Of a stretch of DNA of 64,000 bases, positions 40,249 to 57,553 are shown one piece after another; within the stretch, counting starts at the first letter, position 1, and each line of letters starts with the position of its first letter. Origin of the DNA: a virus; the IMG/VR virus record IMGVR_UViG_3300033049_000066, positions 1 to 64,000 of that record. One strand, given 5' to 3'. The position numbers and the translations under genes were made by a program. Under the pieces are notes generated by a model. That model was not told where the DNA came from. It did no database searches and worked only from the letters and a program-made list of their open reading frames with translations.

Positions 40249-40554
40249 ATGTCAATAAGCACAGCAGTTATAATCAAACCGAGAATGGATCTTAAAGAGC
40301 CACCAATGTTTAAGGTAGTGTACGTAAATGACAATAAGACGAGCGTTCAATTCGTAGTTGAAAGTTTAGTAGATCATTTTAGCTATGAATCAGAAACTGC
40401 TGAAAGAATTGCGCAGGATGTTCACGCAGATGGCGCAGCAGTAGCAGCAGTGTTACCGTATGAAATAGCTGAACAGAAAGGTATCGAGGTCACACTTGCT
40501 GCTCGTAAGCAAGGCTTCCCATTACAAATTCGAATCGAAAAAGAAACTAGCTAG
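40249..40554 (+). CDS. clpS: ClpS, N-degron adaptor for Clp protease
   Basis: 101 aa from ATG at 40249, which has AAGGA upstream; an ATG 10 codons earlier lies in the hairpin region. The ClpS core is clear: FKVVYVNDNKTSVQFVVESLV, VHADGAAVAAVLPYEIAE, FPLQIRIEKE. Asn-Asp at the VND turn and the substrate-pocket His (VHADG) are kept. In bacteria ClpS delivers N-degron proteins to ClpAP; here the phage AAA+ partner is ClpX, so the pairing is open to question. Its stop meets the convergent gene. Confidence 0.9.
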   Translation: MSISTAVIIKPRMDLKEPPMFKVVYVNDNKTSVQFVVESLVDHFSYESETAERIAQDVHADGAAVAAVLPYEIAEQKGIEVTLAARKQGFPLQIRIEKETS

Positions 40555-41351
40555 GGTTTGATTATCTTAGGATAATAGTTATCTGGGTCTTTAATGCAAC
40601 CTGGATTATTTACAAATCTTACGCCGTCAACTTCTAGGTCGATTTCCCCATTGTATCTACCAAAAATCCACGTTTTTACTTTTGTTTGATCGTCATTTAG
40701 CAAGCAAGACAAGATGCCGCTATTACCAGCGGTATCGCCTAATATAGTTGAGTTATATGCTTCGTCATGATTTATTAAATCCGGGCTAGGTACCGAGCTA
40801 GTTACGACAATAATATTTTTTACTTCGTCTAACTTTTGGCAATCTTCTATACTATTGTGCATATAATGTTGATCGGAAACTGCTAACTTAAAAATCTTGC
40901 TAGCCATATTATAGGACATCTGCCCCTTATCGTTAAGAAAGTCTAGTGTATTGCTTGTAGTATCACCGTCAGTAAAATCAAAGGTAGTCCAGCCGTTAGT
41001 AGAAAGTAACGTAACATCCGGTAGTACTATAATTTTTTCGTGTAAGAAAAACACTGATTCCATCGCCTCAATATTCTCCCTTAGCGAGGCATAACTACAA
41101 TCAAAATCGCCATTCTGTGCGTCGTGCTCGAGGTACCCGTCTATGAAAAACACGCCTTCGTAGTACTGAGACACACCCTCTAAGAAATTAAACAGAACTT
41201 CGTGGTCACTGGAAATATTGCCTGCGACGATACAGAATAAACTTGTTGCCTTCCCTTCCCAAGAAAAATCATCTAAATTAGTTAAAAATAGATCACTTAT
41301 TAAATCAAAATTAAAAATCATTATATTGTTATGTGCATTTCTGCTGAACAT
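40551..41351 (-). CDS. Metallophosphoesterase-like protein with degenerate metal site
   Basis: 266 aa on the minus strand. The fold pattern of calcineurin-like phosphoesterases is clear, but most metal ligands are changed: ISDLF (usual DLH), VAGNIS (usual AGD), IDGYLEH (usual GNHE), VVTSSVPSP (usual THHAPSP) and IFGRYNGEIDLEVDGVRFVNNPG (usual HGHTH...NPRGY). Hydrophobic and Gly/Pro/Asn positions are kept, so it is a folded protein that probably lost catalysis rather than a pseudogene; there is no stop or frameshift. It may now bind a nucleotide or protein. Late box upstream at 41366. Confidence 0.75.
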   Translation of the reverse strand: MFSRNAHNNIMIFNFDLISDLFLTNLDDFSWEGKATSLFCIVAGNISSDHEVLFNFLEGVSQYYEGVFFIDGYLEHDAQNGDFDCSYASLRENIEAMESVFFLHEKIIVLPDVTLLSTNGWTTFDFTDGDTTSNTLDFLNDKGQMSYNMASKIFKLAVSDQHYMHNSIEDCQKLDEVKNIIVVTSSVPSPDLINHDEAYNSTILGDTAGNSGILSCLLNDDQTKVKTWIFGRYNGEIDLEVDGVRFVNNPGCIKDPDNYYPKIIKP

Positions 41352-52034: not shown

Positions 52035-52589
52035 ATGGAAGTAAGATGGATCATTAGTGAGGCAATTACTAGTGAACAAATTAGCCCAGAGATAATTAAC
52101 AATACAGGACCATCCTGGGGTAGTTGGGTTACTTGGCACAAGTACAAGACAAATAATTGCATTTGTTCTGATTTGGAGAGTGCGAGTAGATTAGTAGAAC
52201 AATCGTTTCAGAATACAGTTAATTTATATATTTCAAAAGATAGTTTTCAAAATAGCAAAAATCCCCAAGGCGTGCATGTATTCGACGGTCATTTTGTAAA
52301 CAGTTCAATTAGTAACAAAGACGATATCGTTGCGTTAAACATTGCTGTGCCAGCAGCGGATATTGTGTTGCTGCTAGGTTTTAATTTTAGTCCTTTACTC
52401 AACACAGATGACGAAGCCCTGCGCGAGTCACGCGCTGAATATTATTTTAATGTGCGCACAATTATTGTTGAGAATCCCGAGACACAATTTGTTTTAGTTG
52501 AATATGAATATGAATTAGCGAGCTGGGTAATCGAGTTGAGCAATGTTACTCAAGACACTGCCGCAAATGTAAAGAGTTTATTAGCTTAA
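52035..52589 (+). CDS. Conserved hypothetical protein
   Basis: 184 aa. SWGSWVTWHKYKTNNCICSDLESASRLV recurs in T4-like aquatic phages after fibre genes. No enzyme motif. Its last 44 nt overlap the convergent EAL gene, which is unusual for two genes that are both intact. Confidence 0.72.
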   Translation: MEVRWIISEAITSEQISPEIINNTGPSWGSWVTWHKYKTNNCICSDLESASRLVEQSFQNTVNLYISKDSFQNSKNPQGVHVFDGHFVNSSISNKDDIVALNIAVPAADIVLLLGFNFSPLLNTDDEALRESRAEYYFNVRTIIVENPETQFVLVEYEYELASWVIELSNVTQDTAANVKSLLA

Positions 52590-53340
52590 TTGTACTTTCT
52601 AGTTCTTCTACAGTTTCTGCCATTGAAAAGAAATATCCCTGAAAACAAGTAAATCCGATTTTGCGTAATATTTCGTATTGGCATTGATTTTCTACACCTT
52701 CTACAATTGTGAATTTATCTAGTGCTTGCGTTAGTTGATACATAGCAGTGACAAGGGCAACATCTTGCTGCGTTTTCGTGATATCATCAACGAACATTTT
52801 ATCTATTTTAATTTCAGTTACTGGTAGAAATTTTAATCTGCCAAATGAGCTGTATCCGGTGCCAAAATCATCAATTGAGATATTAAAGCCTTCAGCAGCT
52901 AGATGATATATCTTAGCGATATCTGCATCGTCAATCATTGAAGATTCCGTGAGCTCAAGTGTTATTTGCTTGGGGTGAATTTCTGCTTCTGTTATAATTT
53001 GATGGACGGTATTGCAGAAATTAGCATCCCGTAATTCTTCACCAGCAACATTAACCGACGCTGTAAACGTATTAGTTACTAATCCTTCATCTACCCATTT
53101 TCTCAATTGGTGCGCAACTTTCTTTAAAATCCAATAACCGAGCTCATTTATTTGGGAAGTTTTAATTGCTACATCAATAAATGATTCAATATGGCATATA
53201 TTCGTGTCGGGTTTTATTAGTGCTTCTACCCCAGTAATTTCAAAATAGTCTCCTATTAGACAATACTGTGGCTGATAGTGTATATTAAGAGAATTATTCT
53301 TTAAAGATTCAGCAATATATTGTGCAATTTCGTCATTCAT
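52546..53340 (-). CDS. EAL-domain c-di-GMP phosphodiesterase
   Basis: 264 aa, almost only an EAL domain, without sensor, GGDEF or membrane parts. Key residues are in place: EAL (Glu39), Asn97 (SVNVAG), ELTES (Glu129/132), DDFGTGYSS (Asp158, Asp159), IKID (Lys179), VEGVE (Glu215) and Gln235. The substrate-phosphate Arg of EALxR is Lys and the usual EALxRW spacing is shorter. It probably hydrolyses c-di-GMP to pGpG. It has two minus-strand late boxes. Confidence 0.9.
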   Translation of the reverse strand: MNDEIAQYIAESLKNNSLNIHYQPQYCLIGDYFEITGVEALIKPDTNICHIESFIDVAIKTSQINELGYWILKKVAHQLRKWVDEGLVTNTFTASVNVAGEELRDANFCNTVHQIITEAEIHPKQITLELTESSMIDDADIAKIYHLAAEGFNISIDDFGTGYSSFGRLKFLPVTEIKIDKMFVDDITKTQQDVALVTAMYQLTQALDKFTIVEGVENQCQYEILRKIGFTCFQGYFFSMAETVEELESTIKLINSLHLRQCLE

Positions 53341-53345
53341 ATTAG

Positions 53346-53374
53346 TATTTATCCGGATATCATCGCTATTTATC
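53346..53374 (-). promoter_or_regulatory. Two minus-strand late-promoter boxes before the EAL gene
   Basis: GATAAATA on the minus strand at 53346-53353 and again at 53367-53374, as the direct repeat CGGATAAATA. Confidence 0.6.
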
Positions 53375-53427
53375 CGAAATATGCTAAGTCATTGATTAAT
53401 TCATTTGCAAATAACCGCAATTAGAGG

Positions 53428-53456
53428 TTGACCTTTGGCGCTATATGTCATATAAT
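53428..53456 (+). promoter_or_regulatory. Early-type promoter, five-copy family
   Basis: TTGACC, 17 nt, TATAAT (53451-53456), then TATAACAGTTAGATAAC. A single copy of TAAGTCATTGATTAAT lies 28 nt upstream. Confidence 0.88.
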
Positions 53457-53495
53457 GTATATAACAGTTAGATAACGAGCAAAGGATTAAAGAAC

Positions 53496-53642
53496 ATGAT
53501 ACACGAAATTCTCGAAGCAAAAGCAGCAGAAAAAGCGTTTGTAAATGCTCAAATAGCTGATGAACAGAAGTTGATGCTGGACATTGCTAAGGTAATGACG
53601 CCAATATTATTCGTGTTAATTTTTGCGATTTCGTTGATATAG
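53496..53642 (+). CDS. 48-aa tail-anchored membrane protein, early
   Basis: MIHEILEAKAAEKAFVNAQIA..., a polar helix then a hydrophobic C-terminus (TPILFVLIFAISLI). AAAGGATTAAAG precedes the ATG, and a strong promoter lies upstream. Function unknown; size and early expression fit a host-takeover or exclusion peptide. Confidence 0.75.
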   Translation: MIHEILEAKAAEKAFVNAQIADEQKLMLDIAKVMTPILFVLIFAISLI

Positions 53643-53645
53643 AGG

Positions 53646-53674
53646 TTGACCTTTGGCGCTACTTGTTATATAAT
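53646..53674 (+). promoter_or_regulatory. Early-type promoter, five-copy family
   Basis: TTGACC, 17 nt, TATAAT (53669-53674), then AACAGTTAGATAAAG. Starts 4 nt after the preceding stop. Confidence 0.88.
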
Positions 53675-53706
53675 GTATGTAACAGTTAGATAAAGAGGAA
53701 AGGATT

Positions 53707-54057
53707 ATGTCATACGTAATATATAACAAAGAAACAACAAAAACGTTGTTAGCACGAGCACCACATGTCGGTTGCTACGTGGAATCTTATTTAACAAACA
53801 GCGCGGCAAAAGCAGCTCTTACACGCTTAGATAAGAAAGGCAAATTAGGTGTTTATCAAAAAGAAATCGACACTGATGTGACTGTTGCAGTCGCACATGT
53901 TAAAGAAGATTTTGCGATCGCGGAAATTACCAAATTCCGCACTAGTATTGAGAAAATGGTAACACGCAGAAATGCGATGACCGGGCAGGAATTTCAAGAA
54001 TCAATTAACGCCCGGTTTTCATCTTCGCCATCTTCAGAAAACTACTGGTCTACATAA
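53707..54057 (+). CDS. Conserved small phage protein
   Basis: 116 aa. MSYVIYNKETTKTLLARAPH ... YLTNSAAKAALTRLDKKGK resembles a small early protein family of T4-like phages. Basic, soluble; function unknown. Under its own strong promoter. Confidence 0.72.
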   Translation: MSYVIYNKETTKTLLARAPHVGCYVESYLTNSAAKAALTRLDKKGKLGVYQKEIDTDVTVAVAHVKEDFAIAEITKFRTSIEKMVTRRNAMTGQEFQESINARFSSSPSSENYWST

Positions 54058-54081
54058 CCCAAAATTATATAGGATAGAATT

Positions 54082-54282
54082 ATGAATGATATAAGTTTCG
54101 TAGAAGCCCGAGTACGTGCATTAGGCGAAAGTGTTGATATGTGCGATTGTAAGTTAGGTCGCAATATTATTATGAATGAACGTGAGAATTTGCAAGATAA
54201 GCTATTTAATTTACAATGTCAAGAAATGCAGAAAACTCAAGTCTTGCAAACAGCTAACGGAGTTTCACAATGTCAGGCGTAA
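54082..54282 (+). CDS. Small hypothetical protein
   Basis: 66 aa, helical and with several Cys. TAGGATAGAATT ribosome site. Overlaps the HNH gene by 13 nt. Not recognised. Confidence 0.6.
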   Translation: MNDISFVEARVRALGESVDMCDCKLGRNIIMNERENLQDKLFNLQCQEMQKTQVLQTANGVSQCQA

Positions 54283-54791
54283 ATAAACAAAAAAAGAAAA
54301 ATACAAAGACTTTGTTCCATCGGCAATCCGGTAAATGTTTTTATTGTGACACACCGACGTATCTCTTTCATACCCAGTCAGACTGTTACCGACGCGATCA
54401 TCCAACCACGCTTGCGACCTTCGACCACATCAAAGTCAAATCAAAATTCGGATCTTGCGCATTAGCTAACGGAGTATGTGCTTGTCAGTTGTGCAACTCA
54501 ATGCGCGGTAATCTAGACCAGAAAATATTCATCAATAACTTTGCTTATATCCAAGCAGAATGGCAAAATAATAATCGACATATTACCGTGTCAAACGGCG
54601 TAGTAAATTGTTTATCACTGAAGCTGCGACGAAAGGCAAACCGTCAGCGTAAAAAAGAAAAGCAAAACCAAAGAATTGCAAGACAACATGCAAGGCATAA
54701 CGCTGGATTTCTTACTAAATTTTATAAGAAATTCGGCAAAATTGCGAAAGACTTATTTACTAAATCCGTGTATAATACACGTACAAACTAA
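54270..54791 (+). CDS. HNH-type endonuclease
   Basis: 173 aa. Two Cys pairs (CFYC, CQLC) hold the zinc fold; ATFDHIKVKSKFG carries the catalytic His, and NSMRGNLD the final motif. A basic C-terminus (LRRKANRQRKKEKQNQR) likely binds DNA. Could be a free-standing homing nuclease or a host-DNA nuclease. No split gene around it. Confidence 0.75.
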   Translation: MSGVNKQKKKNTKTLFHRQSGKCFYCDTPTYLFHTQSDCYRRDHPTTLATFDHIKVKSKFGSCALANGVCACQLCNSMRGNLDQKIFINNFAYIQAEWQNNNRHITVSNGVVNCLSLKLRRKANRQRKKEKQNQRIARQHARHNAGFLTKFYKKFGKIAKDLFTKSVYNTRTN

Positions 54792-54800
54792 GAGAATATT

Positions 54801-55007
54801 ATGATTGAACTAACTTTTATCGTTACTACGTCCGTCCTTATCATGGCAGCACTGCAGATTATTAGCGCAGCCCTTGGAAACTCAGTAAAAATGCCGAGTC
54901 TTTGTCCTTTTGTTTCGATAGGGCCAACTCGACATTTTATTATGTATCCTTCTGTTTTATTTCAAGTTTGGTTTTGGACTCAGCAGTTAGGCATATTCGC
55001 GTTATGA
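54801..55007 (+). CDS. Small membrane protein
   Basis: 68 aa with two hydrophobic segments (~4-27 and ~45-66). Stop overlaps the next start (ATGA). Unknown. Confidence 0.6.
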   Translation: MIELTFIVTTSVLIMAALQIISAALGNSVKMPSLCPFVSIGPTRHFIMYPSVLFQVWFWTQQLGIFAL

Positions 55008-55435
55008 AAGACTGGAACGAAACAAGGTCAATTATAGCTAAATGGTCCCGGTATTTACTATTCAACGGTATTTTTGCAACTTCGATATATTTTGGGTTAT
55101 TTACAGATGGGTGGTGGACCGATGGCGCGGCTAACCTTGCGTTGGTTATAGGATGGGCAACCGGAATATTTGGCGCCATGATCCTGCTCGGAATTGAATT
55201 AAGCAAACGCCCCGGCGCCGATGATGATTATATTGAAATGTTAGCAAGGCAGGAACCATCCGTTATACCATTTTGGTTTGATCTTACGTTTGATCTTATT
55301 GTCACAGTTGCCTTTATTTGGTCCGGGTACATTGTACTTTCATTATTCTATATAATAAGTATAATTGCCCTCAAAGCTGTACGTGACGTGCCGAAGAATA
55401 TGGTGCTATCCAGACTTAAATCACAAAAATCATGA
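55004..55435 (+). CDS. Membrane protein
   Basis: 143 aa from ATG at 55004, coupled to the previous gene. Three or four hydrophobic segments (LLFNGIFATSIYFGLF, LALVIGWATGIFGAMILLGI, LIVTVAFIWSGYIVLSLFYIISI). Unknown; overlaps the next gene by 4 nt. Confidence 0.7.
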   Translation: MKDWNETRSIIAKWSRYLLFNGIFATSIYFGLFTDGWWTDGAANLALVIGWATGIFGAMILLGIELSKRPGADDDYIEMLARQEPSVIPFWFDLTFDLIVTVAFIWSGYIVLSLFYIISIIALKAVRDVPKNMVLSRLKSQKS

Positions 55436-55692
55436 AGTGGTTACACTTTTTAGAGCTACCAATAAATTATAGCAGGCGTGGCAACCTACGAAAATCAGAG
55501 CCGTGGGTTTCCGCTGCTGAGACACTAAGCGACACCGGCCGACAGAAATCTATTAAAGATTTATCTATGACAATGTCAGTCGTTGACGGCGCTGATGGAC
55601 AGCCGGATGAATTGCTGTATCTACATTTTACCGGGCAACCTGCAGATCACGGGATCTGCATTGCCTACATTTCAGAAAACGAGGAGGAATAA
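55432..55692 (+). CDS. Small hypothetical protein
   Basis: 86 aa, overlapping the previous stop by ATGA. Contains DELLYLHFTGQPADHGICIAYI. No function recognised. Confidence 0.6.
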   Translation: MKWLHFLELPINYSRRGNLRKSEPWVSAAETLSDTGRQKSIKDLSMTMSVVDGADGQPDELLYLHFTGQPADHGICIAYISENEEE

Positions 55693-55693
55693 T

Positions 55694-55903
55694 ATGAAAT
55701 TTATAATACACTACTGGCGATCAAATTTAGCAGTAATAACTGGGCACGACCATGGCTCAGAAATTGACGAAGCTGCGGTAGCAGCGCTCATTGCTGAGCA
55801 GAAAGTCAACGTGATGATCCAGCACGTAGCAGCAAGCGCAGACCGACCAGCGACATCATACTGTTACATTGATGACTTAAATCATCGCTTCCAAACCCGC
55901 TAA
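55694..55903 (+). CDS. Small hypothetical protein
   Basis: 69 aa from ATG at 55694 with a strong AGGAGGA ribosome site. Not recognised. Confidence 0.65.
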   Translation: MKFIIHYWRSNLAVITGHDHGSEIDEAAVAALIAEQKVNVMIQHVAASADRPATSYCYIDDLNHRFQTR

Positions 55904-55919
55904 GATATTGAATAATACT

Positions 55920-56822
55920 ATGACGATAAAAAACTACAATCTCATTCACGCAGATAATGTAACTGCGATGCAAAATATAGAGGCAAATACATTTGACAGT
56001 TGTATTACAGATCCACCGTATGGAATGGCGATAGCTGGCGTCGGATGGGATCACAATGTGCCACCAGTTGCTACATGGCAAGAGGTATACCGCGTTTTAA
56101 AACCAGGCGGTTTTGTAGCATCATTTTGCTCCCCGGAATTTTACCACAGGATGGCAATCAACGTAGAAGACGCTGGATTCTTACCGAAGGATATGGTCGT
56201 ATGGATGGTCACGACAAAGATGGCTAAGAAGAATCGATTAAAGCCAGCACATGAGCCAATATTCATAGCGCAGAAGCCACTAGAAAAATCAATTAAGCAC
56301 AACGTCAGCGAATGGGGATGTGGAGAAATTAATACAACAACAACGCGAGTACCATGGGATGGCGCGCCTCCAACTGGCTGGATTGCTGGTGGTGAAAAAA
56401 GACGAGCGTTTGGCAGCGAGGTTAACAAAGCATCGGAATCCGGCGAAAAAAATAAAACAGTAGACGCAAATCCAAGCGGCAGATATCCTTCGGATATTAT
56501 AGGGCATTTTGATGAGCCCGAGCATCAAAAGTATTTTTATGCACCAAGAGTAACAAGAAAAGAGCGCGGGGAATATAATAATCATCCCACTCCAAAACCG
56601 ATAAATCTTATGCGATATCTCATTCGCATATACACTCCAGCTGGTGGAAAAGTCCTGGATCCGTTTGTTGGTAGCGGAAGCACTGGCATCGCAGCACTGC
56701 AAGAGAATTGTGAATTTACCGGGATAGATACTGATGAAGCTTATATTAAAATATCAGAACAACGAATTTTAGATCATTGCGGGCAACCAGCAGATGTATT
56801 ATTCGACTACGAAACAAAATAA
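55920..56822 (+). CDS. DNA methyltransferase (N4/N6, beta-class order)
   Basis: 300 aa from ATG at 55920 (a TTG 4 codons earlier is possible). Motif IV DPPYGM comes first, and the AdoMet-binding motif I region VLDPFVGSGSTGIAAL last, the order of beta-class amino-methyltransferases. No restriction partner is adjacent. It may protect phage DNA against host nucleases or mark packaging sites. Target sequence cannot be read from the protein. Confidence 0.88.
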   Translation: MTIKNYNLIHADNVTAMQNIEANTFDSCITDPPYGMAIAGVGWDHNVPPVATWQEVYRVLKPGGFVASFCSPEFYHRMAINVEDAGFLPKDMVVWMVTTKMAKKNRLKPAHEPIFIAQKPLEKSIKHNVSEWGCGEINTTTTRVPWDGAPPTGWIAGGEKRRAFGSEVNKASESGEKNKTVDANPSGRYPSDIIGHFDEPEHQKYFYAPRVTRKERGEYNNHPTPKPINLMRYLIRIYTPAGGKVLDPFVGSGSTGIAALQENCEFTGIDTDEAYIKISEQRILDHCGQPADVLFDYETK

Positions 56823-56844
56823 TCGCAATTGCTGCTGATGAGGT

Positions 56845-56925
56845 TAAGTTATTGATTTATATAGGATTCTAGCATTTATTAAATCAGAGTAATATATTGG
56901 TAAGTTATTGATTTATATAAGAATA
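56845..56925 (+). repeat. Pair of AT-rich repeats upstream of an early promoter
   Basis: TAAGTTATTGATTTATATA at 56845 and again at 56901, 56 nt apart, with AGTAATATATTGG between. The same pair with the same spacing occurs at 60825/60881, and an inverted copy at 2330. Followed by a TAATTACAAATAACCGC-type stretch before the promoter. Confidence 0.85.
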
Positions 56926-57023
56926 GTGGTTCTTAGCGGCGTTTTTAAACGACATTCACGTATCAGTACCAGTAAACTGTACAAAAGAGCCCTAAAATAA
57001 TTACAAATAACCGCAATTAGAGG

Positions 57024-57052
57024 TTGACCTTTGGCGCTACTTGTCATATAAT
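57024..57052 (+). promoter_or_regulatory. Early-type promoter, five-copy family
   Basis: TTGACC, 17 nt, TATAAT (57047-57052), then TATATAACAGTTAGATAAC. Upstream AAATAACCGCAATTAGAGG is identical to that of the 53428 copy. Confidence 0.9.
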
Positions 57053-57091
57053 ATATATAACAGTTAGATAACAAGCAAAGGAATAAAGACC

Positions 57092-57553
57092 ATGGCAGAT
57101 AAAGTAAAATACGCAGGACTTGACAAAGCAATTGCAATCGCGTCGACAGCATTTGTTGGAGTTTTTGACAAAGGTGGTGTTCCGTATATTATGCATTGTT
57201 TGCACGTGATGCGCGGTGTTGAAGACTTAGGCACAGAAGCAATGATTGCCGCAGTATTGCATGATTTACTTGAAGATTGTAAAGAGTGGTCCGCGGAATT
57301 GCTAGTCGACGAGGGGTTCGACCCTCGTACTGTTAGTCTTGTTACACTTGTAACACATCTCAAAGGTGAAAGCTACAATGCCTACATAACCCGTCTATCA
57401 ATTTCGCATATAGCACGAGCAATTAAGATGGCTGACTTACGTCACAACAGCGATATTCACAGAATGAAAGGACTTACCGAGAAAGATCACGCTCGCCAAG
57501 CAAAGTACCACAAAGCGTATGCGTTTCTTAAGGAAATTGCAAGTAATGAATGA
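57092..57553 (+). CDS. HD-domain hydrolase resembling small alarmone (ppGpp) hydrolases
   Basis: 153 aa. Metal and catalytic residues match the SpoT/MESH1 hydrolase pattern: PYIMH (His35), HDLLED (His57, Asp58, Glu61, Asp62) and KMADLRHN (Asp115, Asn119). No synthetase domain. MESH1-type enzymes remove the 3' pyrophosphate of (p)ppGpp. The Arg that starts the family's first motif is not obvious, so another nucleotide substrate is possible. Early promoter upstream; overlaps the next gene by 8 nt. Confidence 0.8.
   Translation: MADKVKYAGLDKAIAIASTAFVGVFDKGGVPYIMHCLHVMRGVEDLGTEAMIAAVLHDLLEDCKEWSAELLVDEGFDPRTVSLVTLVTHLKGESYNAYITRLSISHIARAIKMADLRHNSDIHRMKGLTEKDHARQAKYHKAYAFLKEIASNE

Follow-up and report, generated by a model that had tools for sequence, protein, structure and literature searches.

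Phage genes directed at nucleotide second messengers have been described in several settings. Dap1 of Pakpunavirus, which inhibits the host phosphodiesterase DipA, and the GGDEF protein gp350 of Bacillus phage G are both aimed at cyclic di-GMP (c-di-GMP); small alarmone hydrolases (SAHs) are represented by PaSpo of Salmonella phage SSU5, which neutralizes toxSAS toxins (PMC9712102), and by the SAH of Pseudomonas phage Adele, which is paired with Dap1 in that phage and for which the authors chose no substrate (PMC12846349). A literature search, with most subscription journals outside its scope, returned no direct precedent for a phage-encoded EAL protein or diguanylate cyclase. The DNA analyzed here, positions 1 to 64,000 of the IMG/VR virus record IMGVR_UViG_3300033049_000066 (this 64,000-nucleotide stretch is termed the window), carries an EAL-domain gene and an SAH-type HD-domain gene, and the remainder of the record adds a PAS-GGDEF gene; in contrast to the Dap1 and gp350 cases, this genome has a separate predicted breaker (EAL) and maker (PAS-GGDEF) of c-di-GMP. 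Phage SAHs, GGDEF proteins and interference with c-di-GMP are known separately; what is new is that one clade of jumbo phages combines a stand-alone predicted EAL breaker with a separate predicted GGDEF maker.

The complete source record (G000) comprises 293,278 bases. Since its gp23-type major capsid protein is approximately 65% identical to those of Vibrio phage 2.275.O, the Pseudomonas PA5oct/Paride group, Sinorhizobium phage Phosso and other jumbo phages, it belongs to the T4-like jumbo phages, with no named phage close to it; a megablast search with the 10-kb segment around the two genes gave no match among named phages. The relatives used for comparison were the viral records L003 to L011 and the records G002 to G006, including a relative of 344 kb (G003); L003 is a fragment from this phage or an almost identical one (100% identity).

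Predicted breaker and maker of c-di-GMP

The stand-alone EAL-domain protein (264 amino acids [aa]; 52,546–53,340, minus strand) is a predicted c-di-GMP phosphodiesterase that matches PF00563 over its full length (E=3e-54; 184.3 bits against a curated cut-off of 31.3; profile positions 4–235 of 236). By alignment and motif scan, the motifs EAL, SVNV, ELTES, DDFGTGYSS, KIDK, VEGVE and FQGY are intact, with key residues invariant in four phages; the metal-binding and catalytic residues, with roles as in RocR-type enzymes, are all present (EAL, the N of SVNV, the E of ELTE, the DD of DDFGTG, the K of KID, the E of EGVE and the Q of QGY). The protein is related to the EAL domains of the phosphodiesterases DosP and MucR and has the full domain and the intact motif residues in common with them; unlike these, it is viral, lacks a sensor or GGDEF domain, is preceded by late-type boxes and belongs to a clade of its own. 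Its counterparts in the phage relatives are 54–67% identical to it and form with it a single clade (support 100/100), and its identity to the bacterial EAL proteins retrieved does not exceed 38%. EAL matches in the "phages" collection came mostly from short unannotated records or from ones that look bacterial, and we did not include them among phage EAL proteins. Among the clade phages synonymous sites have reached or nearly reached saturation and the nonsynonymous divergence (dN) of the EAL and HD genes is only about 0.17–0.33, which argues that both genes are kept by purifying selection. Hydrolysis of c-di-GMP, as indicated by these motifs, is the most likely activity of the EAL protein.

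A search for GGDEF domains found one in the record (157,358–157,837; PF00990, E=1.3e-42), whereas the 344-kb relative has two. The domain in the record belongs to a PAS-GGDEF gene of the diguanylate cyclase type (G000 156,860–157,876, plus strand; L225:3361-4377), which lies outside the window, 104 kb away, between tRNA-Thr and tRNA-Cys genes. Its ortholog in the 344-kb relative is 52% identical, follows the same RNaseH-like gene and is preceded by a TATAAATA box. Both proteins read RKTD-VVARY-GGDEF (RKTDVVARYGGDEF), with an intact GGDEF motif and, five residues ahead of this motif, an RxxD inhibitory site. The GGDEF gene of the 344-kb relative also shares 10 nt with the gene for Acb1 (L226:3441-3959, minus strand; PF23474, E=7.5e-36), an anti-CBASS protein, directed against the cyclic-oligonucleotide-based anti-phage signaling system (CBASS).

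The phage thus carries, by domain and motif content, both a predicted maker and a predicted breaker of c-di-GMP. The sequence-only reading of the window had seen two enzymes that remove second messengers; the motif residues of both are indeed intact, but simple removal of c-di-GMP is not supported as it was put, since the genome also encodes a PAS-GGDEF protein, and the interpretation moves from removal to control. Rather than merely lowering c-di-GMP, the phage probably sets its level through a maker and a breaker of its own.

Three further observations concern the GGDEF genes. The next protein gene downstream of the GGDEF gene in the record (L225:4811-5629) encodes a polysaccharide lyase (PF14099, E=2.5e-7) that appears to have a signal peptide. 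The space from the GGDEF gene to the tRNA-Cys gene includes a sequence resembling tmRNA (L225:4500-4720), where ARAGORN called none. Elsewhere, a 170-kb viral record (IMGVR_UViG_3300035182_000466; L228/L074) has a 638-aa protein in which PAS, GGDEF and EAL domains are fused and the N-terminus is hydrophobic; an HD_5 (HD-GYP-like) protein comes after it.

The HD protein and its candidate substrates

The HD protein (153 aa; 57,092–57,553, plus strand) is of the small alarmone hydrolase type and matches PF13328 (HD_4; 34.6 bits, cut-off 27.2) and phrog_990 (E=6e-47). The H, HD, ED and D..(H)N set of metal-site residues is present, and H35, H57, D58, E61, D62, D115 and N119 are invariant in the clade alignment. 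By profile, fold and signature residues, its nearest characterized relative is the (p)ppApp hydrolase of Bacteroides caccae (PDB 7smg), to which it is 40% identical. A profile of the phage HD proteins matched 7smg at 1.2e-36 (128.9 bits), followed by RelA at 3.6e-12 (49.5 bits); the predicted model of the HD protein (pLDDT confidence score 89) superposes on 7smg at 1.4–1.6 Å with template-modeling (TM) scores of 0.85–0.92, compared with about 0.5–0.75 for ppGpp hydrolases and MESH1. The alignment demonstrates that the phage proteins share with 7smg a DK where Rel enzymes have R, and N-x-D-I-x-R where these have HNM, and the signature DK..G..Y is likewise common to both; in the tree the phage HD clade and 7smg group together at 90/77, with weak deeper forks. 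The HD protein is therefore much closer to a (p)ppApp hydrolase than to ppGpp hydrolases, its substrate specificity being predicted from sequence and modeled fold. The earlier assignment of ppGpp as substrate is not supported as it was stated; given this nearest relative, hydrolysis of (p)ppApp or reversal of toxSAS damage competes with ppGpp removal.

Damage reversal has a real precedent in PaSpo, since this phage SAH neutralizes toxSAS toxins. PaSpo, the Adele SAH and phrog_990 are single-domain HD hydrolases in phages, as is the window protein; however, the DK and D-I-x-R signatures are missing from PaSpo and the Adele SAH, and the tree, whose deepest forks are weak, places both beyond the window HD group. 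Unlike 7smg, which is an enzyme of B. caccae, the window protein is encoded in a T4-like jumbo phage, and a search for RelA_SpoT synthetase domains in G000 and in G002 to G005 found none; the HD gene is thus not an obvious cis immunity gene, and a role as cis antitoxin to a phage-borne alarmone synthetase was rejected. The HD gene of pneumophage V22 is located two genes downstream of a MuF gene; Pfam found no synthetase domain in the MuF protein, however, and the V22 protein was not used as a proven (p)ppApp hydrolase. In Vibrio phage 2.275.O (L210:2006-4432), the HD gene is located three genes after a tRNA nucleotidyltransferase of the CCA-adding type; some toxSAS enzymes modify tRNA CCA ends. 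As a caveat, phage Paride needs host (p)ppGpp signaling to replicate on dormant cells (PMC10761892); Paride, a relative by its capsid protein, gave no HD match, and its case is a reminder that ppGpp removal is not always to a phage's benefit.

Promoters, gene order and intervening genes

Two late-type boxes (GATAAATA) precede the EAL gene, one directly before the start (53,346–53,353, minus strand) and a second at 53,367–53,374 (minus strand); ATAAATA occurs upstream of the EAL start in every relative, and in the same place as the first box in L004, L005, L006 and L008. Since 16 of the 30 copies of ATAAATA in the window lie within 45 nt upstream of the start of an open reading frame (ORF), the highest count among all 21 permutations of the same letters, the motif fits a late box of the T4 type. 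The HD gene is preceded by a sigma-70-like early promoter, TTGACC-N17-TATAAT (57,024–57,052, plus strand), with a TTGACC-N17-TATAAT version also before the HD gene of L005. This promoter (TTGACCTTTGGCGCTAnnTGTnATATAAT) has 21 copies in the record at up to three mismatches, compared with none for a reversed-pattern control, and two of its three copies in the segment precede genes for a 48-aa protein (53,428–53,456, plus strand) and a 116-aa protein (53,646–53,674, plus strand). The sequence-only reading had described just this arrangement, late boxes before the EAL gene and an early promoter before the HD gene.

The other early-promoter genes of the record are mostly short and of no known family, and by eye some appear DnaJ-like, nucleotidyltransferase-like or MoxR-like; the set fits early host takeover. 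One family among them, with tandem HREDGPAIE...WY.NGK repeats and a weak match to DUF6745, recurs in the G000 regions at 132,168, 161,644, 183,179, 184,321 and 270,286 (L188, L189, L191, L194). An intergenic element (AATCAATGACTTA; 53,385–53,397, minus strand), present in 26 genome copies at up to one mismatch, is often found near early promoters and often paired exactly 56 bp apart (for example, at window positions 53,385, 56,845, 56,901, 60,825 and 60,881); copies also occur upstream of the EAL gene in relatives, and a pair of TAAGTTATTGATTTATATA elements with this spacing lies upstream of the HD promoter (56,845–56,922, plus strand). The -35 region of the early promoter (53,420–53,445 in the window, and upstream regions in L004, L005 and L006) takes a palindrome-like form, AAAGGT-n-GACCTTT, in relatives and may be a regulator site.

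The gap between the EAL and HD genes measures 3,751 nt (3.75 kb), in agreement with the original estimate of 4 kb, and holds, as first described, a methyltransferase and an HNH protein together with several small ORFs. Gene order is kept in the relatives: the gene at 52,035, the EAL gene reversed, the 116-aa gene, membrane proteins, the HD gene, a 217-aa gene and ClpP. The EAL gene was found in six of the nine viral records that carry the HD gene, one of the six being L003; of the remaining three, L009 and L010 share only the HD gene with the window, and L011 ends at this gene. Four phage lineages, namely the window phage, L004/L008, L006/L007 and L005, have both the EAL and the HD gene in a common order, so that the pattern named at the outset as contrary evidence, two genes that never co-occur in relatives, was not what was seen. 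HD-type matches were obtained in the named phages Vibrio 2.275.O, Phosso, SCTP-2 and Lbo-JY46; a search of seven named phages, jumbo phages or related ones, gave no EAL gene. Among ten other viral contigs with an EAL gene, one (G015; IMGVR_UViG_3300045995_000108, 115 kb) has an EAL-type motif together with a homolog of the window HD protein (E=2.5e-36), a possible second co-occurrence. Co-occurrence as a general phage trait is not supported by these counts; the joint presence is real, and consists of one clade's inheritance plus this one contig.

The intervening genes differ in their conservation. A 48-aa ORF with a hydrophobic stretch at its end (53,496–53,642, plus strand) has no family match; the 116-aa early protein (53,707–54,057, plus strand) is conserved in the clade at 56–69% identity, with a marginal match among named phages (E=0.03) and none in a fold search. 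They are followed on the same strand by a 66-aa ORF without Pfam match (54,082–54,282) and an HNH endonuclease-like protein of 173 aa (54,270–54,791; PF01844, E=4e-5, and PHROG HNH families), whose homolog in L004, L006, L007 and L008 is just about 27% identical. Next come, also on the plus strand, a clade-conserved hydrophobic ORF of 68 aa (54,801–55,007), a clade-conserved hydrophobic protein of 143 aa (55,004–55,435) that is a predicted membrane protein with no relative found in named phages, and ORFs of 86 aa (55,432–55,692) and 69 aa (55,694–55,903) with homologs in L005. Of the small genes that had been proposed as further candidates, those at 53,496, 53,707, 54,801 and approximately 55,004 exist, the latter three being conserved in relatives, but the frame given as 54,801–55,903 consists of at least four ORFs (68, 143, 86 and 69 aa). 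The N6/N4 DNA methyltransferase (55,908–56,822, plus strand; PF01555, E=4e-36), of the type II kind and nearest to marine and cyanophage enzymes, is absent from G002 to G006 and private to the window phage, and was rejected as part of an EAL/HD unit for this reason. Outside the segment, one of the few other minus-strand genes of the window (40,551–41,351) has a weak metallo-phosphoesterase match (phrog_1649) and ATAAATA upstream.

Competing explanations

Overall, we lean, by a modest degree of belief, toward two predicted nucleotide-signal hydrolases with different jobs at different times, within a phage-run control of c-di-GMP. Genes, motifs, promoter types, conservation and synteny are observed; from them we infer catalytic activities, substrates, timing of expression and benefit to the phage. 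Early in infection, the HD protein would remove the 3'-pyrophosphate from alarmone-type products, most likely (p)ppApp or other products of host defense or toxin enzymes of the toxSAS type, and possibly (p)ppGpp in second place, so that protein synthesis and ATP would remain available to the phage. Late in infection, the EAL protein would hydrolyze c-di-GMP, which the PAS-GGDEF protein with its product-feedback (RxxD) site would make; the late breaker could plausibly lower exopolysaccharide, biofilm or a surface receptor before release, and could reduce surface sugars on which released virions would be trapped or through which rival phages would enter. In Escherichia coli phage N4, the host diguanylate cyclase DgcJ stimulates infection and the host EAL phosphodiesterase PdeL protects from it by lowering a c-di-GMP-dependent receptor sugar (PMC8669472); since PdeL has this effect, a late phage phosphodiesterase could likewise reduce surface sugars. 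Two observations weigh against this scheme: the HD genes of L004, L006 and L008 have no early promoter directly upstream, and the 112 nt upstream of the GGDEF gene in the window phage, where the tRNA-Thr gene is located, contain no late box. A fuller version would give these uncultured T4-like jumbo phages a c-di-GMP circuit of their own that is programmed in time, with a maker that senses through its PAS domain and is inhibited by feedback, and a stand-alone breaker that acts late; alongside it, an early enzyme would undo the formation of (p)ppApp or the pyrophosphorylation of tRNA by host defense toxins. This version is tentative, and we would sooner doubt it than rely on it.

The sequence-only reading had grouped these genes into a host-signaling countermeasure region, in which the HD protein removes ppGpp early, the EAL protein removes c-di-GMP late, and the small genes are further members. 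Both genes are intact, the promoter types are as described, the pair co-occurs in four lineages and small genes are conserved; yet the same phage encodes a c-di-GMP maker, the HD protein is nearest a (p)ppApp hydrolase, the methyltransferase is not conserved, and the stretch also keeps the order of many unrelated genes, for example ClpP and onward. A functional unit was sought in a common strand, a shared promoter and joint presence beyond common descent. The EAL and HD genes instead lie on opposite strands under different promoter types, so that an operon or shared regulation was rejected, and their adjacency represents inherited synteny and is not evidence of a functional unit; a single countermeasure region is unlikely. 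The observation itself is confirmed, and its interpretation is partly supported. Still less probable is a purely counter-defensive locus, in which the EAL protein degrades CBASS-type cyclic dinucleotides, the HD protein reverses products of toxSAS enzymes (CapRel-type) and the methyltransferase protects DNA against restriction. EAL domains are known to act on c-di-GMP, the signal of few CBASS systems, and the late-type boxes of the EAL gene are at odds with the early expression expected of an anti-CBASS protein; no EAL anti-CBASS protein appeared in the literature searched, and the methyltransferase is private to one phage. In favor of counter-defense stand the PaSpo precedent (PMC9712102), the presence of a methyltransferase of the type II kind and the overlap of the GGDEF and Acb1 genes in the 344-kb relative, which indicates that the clade meets CBASS. 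The EAL protein as a non-catalytic c-di-GMP sensor or neutral cargo appears highly improbable: it has no sensory domain, and some EAL proteins, such as LapD and FimX, are receptors, but all its motif residues, which degenerate receptors usually lose, are intact and purifying selection extends over deep divergence.

Control of c-di-GMP by a phage, together with an early hydrolase for products of host toxins, is the explanation that we prefer. Phage labels such as "SpoT/ppGpp hydrolase" may conceal enzymes that truly target the products of defense toxins. Because c-di-GMP sets motility, biofilm and the surface sugars that serve phages as receptors, a virus able both to make and to break this messenger could steer all three during infection.

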